Position numbers and translations under genes: made by a program. The notes under the pieces were generated by a model. It saw nothing but the letters and a program-made list of their open reading frames with translations. It was not told the origin of the DNA and made no database searches. A stretch of 39,692 bases of DNA from a virus: positions 1-39,692 of IMG/VR virus record IMGVR_UViG_3300037189_026252; one strand, 5' to 3'. Within the stretch, counting starts at the first letter, position 1; each line of letters begins with the position of its first letter. Positions 4,671-14,986 of the stretch are shown in pieces.

Positions 4671-4706
4671 TTAAATCAAAAGAATATACAGTTTGAAAAC
4701 TGGCAC

Positions 4707-4732
4707 AAGGGGAGCTTTCCGGCTCCCCTTTT
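4707..4732 (+). terminator. Intrinsic terminator
   Basis: AAGGGGAGC (4707-4715) pairs with GCTCCCCTT (4722-4730) over a 6-nt loop and ends in a T-run. It closes the 4032 cassette and lies immediately before the promoter of the next gene. Confidence 0.8.
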
Positions 4733-4737
4733 CACGC

Positions 4738-4743
4738 TACAAT
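4738..4743 (+). promoter_or_regulatory. Putative -10 element of the gene at 4768
   Basis: TACAAT ends 25 nt before the ATG. The terminator stem overlaps the position where a -35 box would lie. Confidence 0.4.
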
Positions 4744-4767
4744 TCTTTTGTTCATCACAGAACTCCA

Positions 4768-5304
4768 ATGTCCTACACACAATTCATCGGAACTGCTACT
4801 CTGACGGTTGATGAATCGTTTGATCTTGATTCTTTTCTGAAAAGTCTTTCTGATCTTTGTATTCAGGAAGAAAACTTCATTTATGAAGAGTATGGGGCAG
4901 TGAATGGAGAAATTGATCTTCATTTTACAAAGTTTGTCTCTCGTAGTGGCAATGAAATCGAGATTGATGTAGATACCGAAGAATACAATAGCAACAGTGA
5001 AGTTTGGGATTGGCTGATTGATCAGTTTGCTCCTATCATGACTTCCGATCTTATGCAGATCAAATCTTCCTTGATTTGCAGTCGGAATGGTACTGAATCG
5101 TGTGTTGCTTATGTGACCAAAGATAAACAACAAATCAGTCAAGATGATCTTATTCAAAATTATCTTAAAGATGTTTCTACTCTTGATGTGATTCAAAGGA
5201 TTCTGGACACATACGATAAAGCGGAAATGTCGGAATCTGATCATGAAAATGCACTCTGGGCGATTGCAATGATTAAACATGAAATGAAGAATCGAAAAGA
5301 ATAA
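4768..5304 (+). CDS. Hypothetical protein (178 aa)
   Basis: The start at 4768 (MSYTQFIGTATLTVDESFDL) is chosen over 4693, because the longer frame would read through a perfect terminator hairpin and the promoter. The protein is acidic. Its N-terminal half alternates like a beta-sheet domain and its C-terminal half (from about residue 120) looks helical. No family is recognised. It is a monocistronic cassette ending in a perfect-palindrome terminator. Confidence 0.6.
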   Translation: MSYTQFIGTATLTVDESFDLDSFLKSLSDLCIQEENFIYEEYGAVNGEIDLHFTKFVSRSGNEIEIDVDTEEYNSNSEVWDWLIDQFAPIMTSDLMQIKSSLICSRNGTESCVAYVTKDKQQISQDDLIQNYLKDVSTLDVIQRILDTYDKAEMSESDHENALWAIAMIKHEMKNRKE

Positions 5305-5323
5305 ATCACAAGTAAAACAATCG

Positions 5324-5347
5324 GGAGCCAAATTTGGCTCCTTTTTT
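5324..5347 (+). terminator. Intrinsic terminator (18-bp palindrome plus T6)
   Basis: The sequence at 5324-5341 is a perfect palindrome with GGAGCC and GGCTCC arms, followed by six T residues. Confidence 0.8.
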
Positions 5348-7607: not shown

Positions 7608-7681
7608 GCAGGTGAAATTTCTTATTTTTTATTATAGAGGATTTCGCCTCTCGATCTTCGTTTGTTGAATATAGTCTAACA
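7608..7681 (+). repeat. Cassette-array intergenic module, copy 5
   Basis: It runs from GCAGG (7608) to TCTAACA (7675-7681). The stem is AGAGG/CCTCT (7636-7640 with 7647-7651); relative to copy 4 the closing pair has changed on both sides (C/G to G/C). The leader frame would start at ATT, meets TAG at codon 7, and its end is out of register with the other copies. Confidence 0.65.
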
Positions 7682-7760
7682 GGCTGGCCAATGTTTTCGT
7701 GGTCCCCTTGTGCCAGTTTTTAAGTGTCACAAGGGCAGCCAGGGTTTAGGTTTTGTGCCC

Positions 7761-7775
7761 TAGGATGATGAAGTC
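7761..7775 (+). promoter_or_regulatory. Cassette promoter of the gene at 7792
   Basis: TAGGAT (7761-7766), 4 nt, then AAGTC. It aligns base for base with the promoter region at 7182 and ends 26 nt before the GTG start. Confidence 0.45.
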
Positions 7776-7791
7776 CCAAAAGAAACTGACT

Positions 7792-8133
7792 GTGAACGAA
7801 ACCGAGCTTCAACAGCAAATCGTTTCCCAAGCAAATACGCACGGAAGCTATCTGATGCAGGCTGAGTTTGGTGGGTTGATTGATGAAGCATGTGCATCCA
7901 ATTGGTTTCAACTTCGGGATGAAGGTGTTGCCACTCTCGATGAGATTTTCACTGAGCATTTTCTCCCCTGGGTGAAAGGTTACGTTTACTATTCCGCCCT
8001 GGTTTGTTCATGTAAAGATGAGCAAGAAGTACTCGTTCAGTTGCGTGAAGATTTTGATGAACTTTATTTCATCTGGTCAAAAGAAGCGCAAGAGTTGATG
8101 AATCAAGAACTCGAAGATAATGAGTTGATGTGA
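7792..8133 (+). CDS. Hypothetical acidic protein (113 aa, GTG start)
   Basis: The GTG at 7792 was chosen by aligning the leader with that of the 7213 gene, whose ATG falls at the same place. The longer frame from TTG 7753 would translate the -10 element. The protein is acidic and helical. It has a possible central globular part (FGGLIDEACASNWFQL, then HFLPWVKGYVYYSALVCSC) and an acidic tail ending ELEDNELM. No family is recognised. Confidence 0.55.
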   Translation: MNETELQQQIVSQANTHGSYLMQAEFGGLIDEACASNWFQLRDEGVATLDEIFTEHFLPWVKGYVYYSALVCSCKDEQEVLVQLREDFDELYFIWSKEAQELMNQELEDNELM

Positions 8134-8143
8134 CAAATCGTGG

Positions 8144-8166
8144 CCCCAAGTTTCTTATACTTGGGG
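8144..8166 (+). terminator. Terminator-like hairpin
   Basis: CCCCAAGT (8144-8151) pairs with ACTTGGGG (8159-8166) around the same TTCTTAT loop as the hairpin at 6974. One base pair differs and is compensated on both sides. Confidence 0.65.
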
Positions 8167-8197
8167 TTCACTATATTCTTTATAGTATTATTAAAAT

Positions 8198-12757: not shown

Positions 12758-12909
12758 TAAATATCCTATATGATGGAAGAATCATTTATCACAACATAAA
12801 TGAGGAAGAAATTTCACAAATACTTCTTGAATTGGCATCCGACGAAACTATTGACCAAACCAAAATTGAAATTGAGGAAATTGAATACGGAAGATCGAGT
12901 AAGAATTGA
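12754..12909 (+). CDS. Small acidic hypothetical protein (51 aa)
   Basis: ATG 12754 overlaps the endonuclease stop as ATGA. The product begins MINILYDGRIIYHNINEEEI and continues in the same acidic style (SQILLELASDE, IEIEEIEYG) with a beta-strand then helix pattern, like short proteins seen in T4-like cyanophages. In the alternative frame of this stretch the translation is unnaturally Lys/Leu-rich, which suggests that this frame is the real one up to about 12880. GATAAATA at 12756-12763 resembles a late promoter for the next gene. Confidence 0.5.
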   Translation: MINILYDGRIIYHNINEEEISQILLELASDETIDQTKIEIEEIEYGRSSKN

Positions 12910-13330
12910 TATAGAAGAATGGTTAATCAGAGTCTCTGAAGTTCGTCCCGAACTCGGAGGCTTTTCTATATGTCCTTTTGCCAAAAAAGCAAAATATAAG
13001 ATATTGAATATCGATATTGATAAAATTTATCCTATTGAAAACTATGACGTCATCATTTATGTGATTCAAGAAGAGAATTTAGATATCATTAATTCGTGGG
13101 TTCAATTTTATAATCAAAAATATTCGGAATGGCTTTTCTTTGAGGACTGTGCTTCTTATGATACATTCATAAATGGCGTTCAGACAAATAATGGCCTACA
13201 CAATTTAATTCTAGGGCAACCTAAAGAAGAACTTAAAAAATTTAGAGAAATATTGAAGAAGACGAATTACTACTCCTATTGGTCTCAAGAATACTATAAC
13301 GAAATTATGAGTTCGGCTTCCGAATCATAG
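12881..13330 (+). CDS. Conserved phage hypothetical protein (about 149 aa)
   Basis: The start is uncertain. TTG 12881, which follows TTGAGGAAA, gives (M)NTEDRVRIDIEEWLIRV. The frame is open back to ATG 12800, but that extension overlaps the acidic 51-aa gene and reads as a low-complexity basic peptide. The core SICPFAKKAKYKI is reminiscent of the 'CPFA' motif of DUF1415-type proteins. WLFFEDCASYDTFINGVQTN and NYYSYWSQEY follow. Function is unknown. Its last 26 nt overlap the end of the convergent minus-strand gene. Confidence 0.6.
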   Translation: MNTEDRVRIDIEEWLIRVSEVRPELGGFSICPFAKKAKYKILNIDIDKIYPIENYDVIIYVIQEENLDIINSWVQFYNQKYSEWLFFEDCASYDTFINGVQTNNGLHNLILGQPKEELKKFREILKKTNYYSYWSQEYYNEIMSSASES

Positions 13331-13682
13331 TATCTGAAACTGAAAAATCTTTATTTCTTCCTTTATTTGAAACAAAGCCAAATCTTTTATAAAAAGTATC
13401 TAATTTCTTTTTATATCTTGGTTCGGATTGTTGTGAAAGAGTTATTCTCTGTTTTTGTTTATCGGCTGACTTAGTTAACCCTTTCATGAATTTAGAGCCA
13501 ATTCCCTTTCCTCTTAATTCTTTTGGAACTTCTAACGAATGTAATTTCACATCACCTTGATGGCTGTTCACCACATGAGCCTTCATGCCAGGATATTTTC
13601 TCTCATAATTACGACCAATTGTGATATGTGCATCCTGTTTTGGTGATTTGCCTTCTTTTATAAACTGTGAATATGTCTTCAT
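13305..13682 (-). CDS. Internal head protein-like GNAT acetyltransferase (copy 1)
   Basis: The first 11 residues, MKTYSQFIKEG, match the capsid-targeting sequence of T4 internal proteins (MKTYQEFIAE). FIKE|G fits the gp21 prohead protease cleavage rule (hydrophobic-x-Glu, then a small residue). The remainder is a GNAT fold: SLEVPKELRGKGIGSKFMKG (about residues 49-68) is motif A with an intact R-G-K-G-I-G acetyl-CoA loop, and YKKKLDTFYKRFGF is the typical motif B end. I infer a protein packaged in the head and released into the host. The ATG overlaps the stop of the upstream paralog, and the gene is last in a late operon. The 3' end overlaps the convergent plus-strand gene by 26 nt. The acetylation target is unknown. 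Confidence 0.72.
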   Translation of the reverse strand: MKTYSQFIKEGKSPKQDAHITIGRNYERKYPGMKAHVVNSHQGDVKLHSLEVPKELRGKGIGSKFMKGLTKSADKQKQRITLSQQSEPRYKKKLDTFYKRFGFVSNKGRNKDFSVSDTMIRKPNS

Positions 13683-14068
13683 TTTGGCTTCCGAATCATA
13701 GGATGAGGTGCGATATCTTTGGTATCGTTATTTTCGAATCCATGATTATTATACCAAGTATTCAACTTTTTCTTATATCCTCTTTCTGCTACTGGTTTTA
13801 CACTAACGGGTAGTTTATTTTTGTCGGCATATCTTGTAATGCCCTTAACAAATCTTGATCCTTTTTTCTTTCCTCTCTCTTTCTTATTTACATTAATTAG
13901 ACCAATATATACATGCTCTTTTTGTTTTCCGTCTTGAGTGGCTGGACGGTGCTGTACATTAAAATTGGAACCTGGATTTTTCCTATCCCAATTTCTTGTG
14001 ATGGTCTTCATTACCTCATCGTGTGACTTTTTCTCGGCTTCTGTAATAAACTGGGAATATGTTTTCAT
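13679..14068 (-). CDS. Internal head protein-like GNAT-related protein (copy 2)
   Basis: It starts MKTYSQFITEA, again a T4-like capsid-targeting sequence with a predicted cut at FITE|A. The body is paralogous to the downstream gene: NKKERGKKKGSRFVKGITRY aligns with its motif A, YKKKLNTWYNNHGF with its motif B, and both end in MIRKP. Here the acetyl-CoA loop reads R-G-K-K-K-G, with Lys replacing Gly and Ile, so catalysis may be impaired or altered. The protein is strongly basic after cleavage, which suits packaging with DNA. Stop and start codons overlap those of both neighbours (ATGA), indicating coupled translation. Confidence 0.7.
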   Translation of the reverse strand: MKTYSQFITEAEKKSHDEVMKTITRNWDRKNPGSNFNVQHRPATQDGKQKEHVYIGLINVNKKERGKKKGSRFVKGITRYADKNKLPVSVKPVAERGYKKKLNTWYNNHGFENNDTKDIAPHPMIRKPK

Positions 14069-14277
14069 GACTCAGATGTTCTTTTAACACTATAGATATT
14101 TGCCCCATACTCTTGATTCAATTTATCGGCTTTTCTACCAGCACTTTTTCTGGTTTTATATGAAGATTTATTTACTCTAACTGCTTCAGATGATCCAACT
14201 TTTGTCCCATCAATAGTTGTGTTTCCGCGATAAATGTCAAAGGGTGCCTCGGAGATGAATTGTCTATATGTCTTCAT
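14065..14277 (-). CDS. Small internal head protein-like protein (70 aa)
   Basis: MKTYRQFISEA is the third copy of the capsid-targeting motif, with a predicted cut at FISE|A leaving about 60 basic residues (RVNKSSYKTRKSAGRKADKL). No enzymatic domain is visible. It is the first gene of the minus-strand operon, 23 nt downstream of a late-type promoter. Size, charge and leader resemble T4 internal proteins of the IP type, which are packaged in hundreds of copies and injected with DNA. Its function after injection is unknown. Confidence 0.68.
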   Translation of the reverse strand: MKTYRQFISEAPFDIYRGNTTIDGTKVGSSEAVRVNKSSYKTRKSAGRKADKLNQEYGANIYSVKRTSES

Positions 14278-14300: not shown

Positions 14301-14309
14301 GTATTTATG
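14301..14309 (-). promoter_or_regulatory. Late promoter of the internal-protein operon (CATAAATAC)
   Basis: On the minus strand CATAAATAC matches the T4-type/cyanophage late motif (NATAAATA). It ends 23 nt before the ATG at 14277. Late timing is expected for proteins that must enter the prohead. Confidence 0.6.
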
Positions 14310-14593: not shown

Positions 14594-14986
14594 ATGGCGA
14601 TTAGGTCCAGTCGAGGTTTCAAAGATATTAGTGCAACATTTCAAATTAATCCTCTAAATCGGGATGCGATTGCAATTAAAAATGAGACCGCAATCTCTAG
14701 GGCCGTTCGTAATCTAATTTTTACTATTGTAGGTGAGGTTCCATATTCTGATGTTGGAAGTTCGGTAAACAAACTTCTTTTTGAGAATATGGATTCTCTC
14801 ACCTCATCAGTATTAGAATCAGAAATACAAAATACATTAAGACTTGAACCTAGAATTAGAGTTATAGATGTTAAAGTATTTCCGAATTATGAAAATAATG
14901 AGTTCAATGTTACTCTCACATATAATATCGTTGGAATCGATGTTCCGGCTCAACAATTAACCCTAGCACTCGTTTCGGCAAGATAA
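14594..14986 (+). CDS. 25: Baseplate wedge subunit gp25
   Basis: This 130-residue protein is a typical GPW/gp25-family member: FKDISATFQINPLNRDAIAI near the start, the core ETAISRAVRNLIFTIVGEVPY, and the LRLEPRI and VDVPAQ-like strands at the end. In T4-like phages gp25 joins gp6 and gp53 in the wedge core that drives sheath attachment. Length is right for the family. Its stop overlaps the gp6 start (TAATG). Confidence 0.93.
   Translation: MAIRSSRGFKDISATFQINPLNRDAIAIKNETAISRAVRNLIFTIVGEVPYSDVGSSVNKLLFENMDSLTSSVLESEIQNTLRLEPRIRVIDVKVFPNYENNEFNVTLTYNIVGIDVPAQQLTLALVSAR

Follow-up and report, generated by a model that had tools for sequence, protein, structure and literature searches.

We found that three adjacent genes on the minus strand of a virus record of 39.7 kb, from a T4-like cyanobacterial phage, the whole of which is referred to here as the window, each begin with a ten-residue leader of the type carried by the internal head proteins of phage T4, and that one of them belongs to the GNAT acetyltransferases. 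The initial annotation had proposed a T4-type leader on a late head-protein cassette that includes a GNAT, and this now gains comparative support from leader conservation, the diversity of the bodies behind it, gp21 in complete relatives, promoter spacing, charge, variability of the locus and a virion protein of phage S-SM1. Taking the reading as a whole, we consider it probable that these genes form a late cassette whose products are tagged in the T4 manner, cut by gp21 and injected, with ORF1 acetylating a host target. Packaging through the T4-type tag, judged from the sequence, is very likely, and action inside the newly infected host, judged by analogy, is somewhat less assured but still favoured. 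Because the head-loading tag of T4 stands on neighbouring proteins, one of which is an acetyltransferase, a protein-modifying enzyme is probably injected together with the DNA; by analogy, its function would be early host modification or counter-defence.

In the mechanism that we propose, ORF1 to ORF3 would be transcribed late and would encode internal head proteins as an exchangeable cassette, in which the N-terminal helix MKTYxxFIxE would act as a T4-type capsid-targeting sequence and bind the prohead scaffold. Then gp21, the prohead protease, would cleave after Glu10 (FIxE, then A or G), and the mature bodies would stay among the packaged DNA and, at infection, exit with it into the cyanobacterial host. 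Once inside, ORF1, which resembles RimI/Naa50 among the GNATs, would most likely acetylate a host protein (or charged tRNA), which would aid takeover or block defence ahead of any phage gene expression, while ORF2, whose catalysis is probably lost, may work through binding and ORF3 would bring in a small basic domain.

As the main comparison we used the complete genome (243.6 kb) of Synechococcus phage B23, a member of the Kyanoviridae; it covers 96.3% of the window at 97.3% identity. Three consecutive minus-strand ORFs starting MKTYSQFIKEG, MKTYSQFITEA and MKTYRQFISEA had been described, and both the ORFs and their translations confirm them; ORF3, ORF2 and ORF1 (70, 129 and 125 aa) lie next to each other with ATGA stop/start overlaps. 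The features of the locus, in window coordinates, are as follows.

14594..14986, plus strand: gp25-like baseplate wedge gene (phrog_261, E 3e-40), the diverging flank, late gene context
14301..14309, minus strand: late-promoter-like CATAAATAC, motif start 32 nt before the ORF3 ATG
14065..14277, minus strand: ORF3, 70 aa, MKTYRQFISEA then PFDIYRGN, first cassette gene, small basic body, pI 9.9
14248..14277, minus strand: ORF3 leader, residues 1-10, predicted cut after Glu10
13679..14068, minus strand: ORF2, 129 aa, MKTYSQFITEA, diverged GNAT paralogue, pI 10.2
14039..14068, minus strand: ORF2 leader, residues 1-10, predicted cut after Glu10
13859..13876, minus strand: degenerate loop of ORF2, R65-G-K-K-K-G70 (RGKKKG against the required R-x-x-G-x-G)
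13686..13700, minus strand: direct repeat copy 1 (TATGATTCGGAAGCC), at the ORF2 end, one edge of the ORF1 insertion or deletion relative to B23
13305..13682, minus strand: ORF1, 125 aa, MKTYSQFIKEG, GNAT acetyltransferase, pI 10.3
13653..13682, minus strand: ORF1 leader, residues 1-10, predicted cut after Glu10, modelled helix at residues 4-11
13497..13514, minus strand: acetyl-CoA loop of ORF1, R57-G-K-G-I-G62, with R57 and G62 invariant in 24 homologues
13315..13329, minus strand: direct repeat copy 2 (TATGATTCGGAAGCC), at the ORF1 end, the other edge of the insertion or deletion
12800..13330, plus strand: phrog_10325 gene, the converging flank of the cassette; a similar gene also bounds the cassette of contig L097

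All three proteins are small and basic, as T4-type internal head proteins are, with pI values of 9.9-10.3, compared to a pI of at least 9.8 in 5% of the B23 ORFs (>= 100 aa).

In the window and in B23, the leader is restricted to these ORFs and their orthologues. Of 508 start sites tested in the window, 3 match the pattern MK[TS][YF]..F[ILMV].E, namely those of ORF1, ORF2 and ORF3, and of 4,223 tested in B23, 2 do, those of the ORF2 and ORF3 orthologues; among the 723 ORFs of B23, 2 have the pattern N-terminally, and none of 89,572 internal positions shows it. The search for the leader in relatives recovered it in many of their arrays, with more than 100 distinct leader proteins among the matches listed in a DNA-pattern scan of viral contigs, and a similar scan of three T4 stretches, used as a control, recovered ipII and ipIII. 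The strict leader did not occur in any of 52 loci whose GNAT is either untagged or part of a larger protein (432 kb, 13,344 starts), and on this result we rejected the leader as a mark of any phage protein. The leader is conserved as a peptide and not as DNA, as had been noted, because ORF1, ORF2 and ORF3 differ by synonymous codons at five residues (Lys2, Gln6, Phe7, Ile8 and Glu10); the codons differ between phages too. Among 12 full-length standalone homologues, M1 (with a TTG start in one), K2, T3, F7 and E10 are invariant, and the mean pairwise identity is 0.65 over residues 2-10, falls to 0.30 over residues 11-20 and is 0.43-0.50 across the GNAT core. Furthermore, all three proteins carry a motif for predicted cleavage, (I/L)xE followed by A, G or S (FIKE-G, FITE-A and FISE-A), and gp23 of B23 carries a similar LRE-A motif.

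ORF1 scores above the Pfam cut-offs for GNATs (PF13508, E 6.8e-7; PF13673; PF00583), and its Tyr98 is invariant among homologues. The AlphaFold2 model has a pLDDT of 85, and upon comparing it to the PDB with Foldseek, the best matches were GNATs, with Naa50 at the top (probability 1.0, at a moderate TM of ~0.5). In a viral structure library the best four matches were segments of giant phage proteins (TM 0.71-0.77), and the sequence homologues include domains of DarB-like/PLxRFG proteins with SLT, SF2 helicase, methyltransferase and LPD39 domains, the nearest homologues outside the tagged group being GNAT domains of polyvalent proteins. ORF1 itself consists of the leader and a single domain, and does not combine several unrelated domains as a polyvalent protein does. 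We predict, with good confidence, that ORF1 is a catalytically active GNAT.

The statement that two of the proteins bear GNAT domains was half right, because the acetyl-CoA loop of ORF2 is broken. ORF2 shares 45% identity with ORF1, and its Pfam GNAT score falls below threshold (E 0.1, 13 bits against a cut-off of 23.6 bits). Its orthologue in S-CRM01, gene 185 ('acetyltransferase'), retains an RGKGMG loop behind the leader MKTFDEFLTEG, with a late-promoter-like motif 30 nt upstream, and is a single gene there, without the cassette. ORF2 is homologous to GNATs by descent, and is probably defective in acetyl-CoA binding and not an active GNAT; on its loop and sub-threshold score we rejected it as a second working enzyme. 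ORF2, used as the sole query against viral contigs, had no matches. When the GNATs were placed in a tree of 51 rows, tagged and embedded forms clustered, and on its well-supported branches the tagged form needed three label changes or more; the alignment is short, with few columns. GNAT tagging may have arisen more than once, with gains and losses indistinguishable in this tree. Additionally, contig L065 (3531-5609) encodes, between baseplate wedge genes, a GNAT-containing protein of 693 aa with the leader-like start VLSFKAFLVEA, which is intermediate between the tagged single-domain and the polyvalent forms.

These properties of ORF1 bear on the most serious alternative, in which the leader docks assembly factors to the scaffold. 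Such proteins would go into the prohead core, share the fate of the T4 core proteins, which gp21 cuts or degrades, and help to assemble the head or compact the DNA, with no injection of active enzymes. The same leader logic would apply, the strongly basic proteins are what DNA condensation would predict, and leader-like N-termini are very common in T4-like contigs, where some may serve assembly only. Conservation of the GNAT loop and of Tyr98 nevertheless counts against it, as does the occurrence of this GNAT inside DarB-like polyvalent proteins, which belong to a class linked to injection (PMC5512222), and the variability of the cassette resembles an accessory arsenal, unlike an assembly gene, so that we regard this alternative as unlikely.

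The late promoter reported ahead of the operon is present as the late-promoter-like CATAAATAC that starts at 14309. The motif NATAAATA lies 30-33 nt upstream of the array-start ATG in the window and B23, in L097, L098, L031/L034, L008, L011 and L028, and in S-CRM01, and at that spacing ~0.002 occurrences are expected per gene; at the starts tested in arrays L007, L012, L019 and L021 it was not found. It also occurs 26-44 nt upstream of the gp25, gp8, sheath, portal and scaffold genes of B23, and in L059 a leader-tagged GNAT sits between the neck genes Ad2 and Hc2. Both gp21 (PF03420) and gp23 were detected in B23, in S-CRM01 and in the large contigs G002, G016, G023 and G045, the first three of which carry tagged GNATs; the gp21 gene is absent from the window itself, a fragment of 39.7 kb that is too short to test. 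A late-promoter motif and a neighbourhood of virion genes are a poor match for takeover within the producing cell, and it is very unlikely that the three proteins are ordinary takeover factors active there, with the leader being, for instance, a partner-binding helix: free phage GNATs of such a kind are known, as in the Rac protein of phiKMV (discussed in PMC7824862), but the leader here agrees with that of the T4 internal proteins.

The leader precedes unrelated bodies in tandem in L008, L010, L011, L012, L028 and L097, and the tagged genes of relatives are tandem and overlapping. A tagged GNAT stands beside a tagged 'KHGPR' protein of 212-215 aa in L008, L010, L011, L028 and L097, and tagged YHGT proteins occur with the GNAT in L010, L023 and L097; the YHGT model folds like KptA/Tpt1, an ADP-ribosyltransferase fold, at a mean confidence of only 72, and these proteins also have one weak PHROG match. 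Tagged proteins resembling a polynucleotide kinase (phrog_505, E 8e-11) and a metallopeptidase (phrog_87, E 2e-6) were found in L011 and L012, respectively, while Pfam gave no match for ORF3, the KHGPR-type protein of 212 aa or the YHGT proteins. The ORF3 body follows different N-terminal sequences in L097, L098, L007 and L011 and always comes after ..EAP, as it should do if modules meet at the protease site. Between the same flanks, the locus holds five genes in L097, three in the window and two in B23, from which ORF1 is precisely missing (window positions 13331-13682 are uncovered). The locus is therefore a variable, exchangeable cassette, with ORF1 present in one phage and absent from a near-identical one, and the repeat of 15-19 nt at the edges of this difference fits recombination at TATGATTCGGAAGCC, as either gain or loss. 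Even though ORF1 and ORF2 are paralogous and recombination at this repeat does occur at the locus, the idea that the shared leader is a by-product of duplication or recombination in the cassette (common 5' ends), without a targeting role, is very unlikely, given the unrelated bodies behind it, the residues kept while codons change, its conservation above that of linker and core, its presence on divergent contigs and on T4 ipII and ipIII, and the separate places of the tag in the GNAT tree.

Evidence from purified virions comes from S-SM1, in which T4-GC190, a putative cytidylyltransferase, is reported among the proteins detected (Sullivan et al. 2010, PMC3037559); we found no virion proteomics on B23 or on the phage of the window. 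We observe that its gene starts MKKFSAFLNEA in S-SM1, MKKYLEFIIEA in B23 and MKTFxxFIxEA in contig homologues, and that it is the only leader-like protein within the 61 kb of S-SM1 scanned. Since this is a single protein with a variant leader (MKKF), and ~41 of the 240 S-SM1 genes are reported as detected in virions (PMC3037559), the probability of chance agreement is non-negligible; the case supports a rule linking the leader to the virion and falls short of proof.

The diversity of tagged bodies suggests a broader and more tentative possibility, which we rate at somewhat below even chances, namely that T4-like cyanophages hold a modular arsenal in which GNAT, ART/Tpt1-like, kinase-like and metallopeptidase-like enzymes, elsewhere fused in one giant injected polyvalent protein, are separate tagged polypeptides, each with its own protease site, in a late cassette gained and lost between near-identical phages, the ten-residue tag on any body deciding its packaging. 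Close to tagged GNATs there are tagged proteins of Tpt1/KptA-like and polynucleotide-kinase-like type (L010:5672-6118, L011:5405-6031, L023:4585-5001 and L097:5912-6370), which suggest RNA-repair or tRNA-directed effectors arriving with the DNA. If the reading of packaged and injected proteins is true, a simple N-terminal pattern predicts the injected proteins of a large, ecologically important phage group from sequence, metagenomes included, and points to enzymes that hit cyanobacteria in the first minutes of infection; shared effector domains would link the tagged internal proteins of T4 with giant polyvalent proteins as two delivery solutions, and the packaged acetyltransferase would be a testable example, with cultured relatives such as S-CRM01.

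Each half of this system is covered by a known kind, T4 internal proteins on the one hand and injected GNAT domains on the other. The T4 internal proteins carry a capsid-targeting sequence and are processed by gp21 (reviewed in PMC3012670), and IPI, IPII and IPIII share with the cassette the leader MKT[YF]xxF(I)xE, the predicted cut after Glu, small basic bodies, the diversity of bodies behind one conserved leader and a variable gene set. Here, in contrast, the leader is followed by a GNAT in ORF1, by a paralogue derived from a GNAT in ORF2 and by an unrelated small domain in ORF3, the cyanophage cassette lies between gp25 and the phrog_10325 gene, and packaging is deduced from sequence. T4 Alt, a packaged and injected ADP-ribosyltransferase (as cited in PMC5512222), is similarly a protein-modifying enzyme entering with the DNA, whereas ORF1 is an acetyltransferase of 125 aa without sequence relation to Alt. 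The initial annotation had considered an injected GNAT not to be an established system, which stands for a separate, T4-tagged form but not in general, as GNATs, of two families, have been described in polyvalent proteins for which injection was argued (Iyer et al. 2017, PMC5512222). An injected GNAT domain thus has precedent, because the closest homologues of ORF1 sit as domains within giant proteins of the DarB-like type, for which injection is presumed. In the DarB-like proteins of Skulduggery and Parlo and the PLxRFG protein of KpnP_ZX1, for which delivery with the phage DNA is predicted, the homologous GNAT is one domain within hundreds to thousands of residues, whereas ORF1 is a separate protein with its own T4-type tag. 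P1 DarB is alike in that a counter-defence protein packaged in the head has its packaging signal at the N-terminus; it differs in its size of 250 kDa and in a capsid signal within the N-terminal 30 residues for which its authors found no consensus across the Dar proteins (PMC9024508). Rac of phiKMV is a phage GNAT that likewise acts on a host protein, modifying host RNA polymerase, and differs in being described, in the discussion of PMC7824862, as a takeover factor and not as a tagged head protein. The open-access literature that we searched held nothing relevant on capsid targeting together with cyanophage or acetyltransferase, and a GNAT made as a separate protein with its own address tag, from a swappable cassette of effectors, was not found there and looks new.

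Finally, several further features were observed at these loci. A second recurrent module, EGYxDSxExAxxIxxxMSDEWLxxILxEA, is found in many otherwise different proteins adjoining tagged genes, often ends in (I/L)xEA and may be another head-targeting or scaffold-binding tag. Its occurrences are as follows.

Contigs: L097:4713-5195, L007:4369-5001, L011:6066-6779, L016:5705-6661 and L028:3493-4002
B23: 108758-109216 and 180924-181943

A 341-aa ORF in L031 (558-1583) fuses a module of this type in frame to an internal MKTYKEFLDEA protein, and in L034 these are two genes. In L027 (~4980-5342) and L028 (4867-5243) the GNAT gene is seemingly frameshifted past the leader, through sequencing error or decay. 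Window positions 4671-5271 and 7679-8173 are, like ORF1, without a match in B23, and the ORFs there have no PHROG match. Leader-tagged nucleotidyltransferase-like proteins (FGRFNPPTTGH) are frequent in T4-like contigs, as in L109, L115, L140 and L206, and are akin in kind to T4-GC190.
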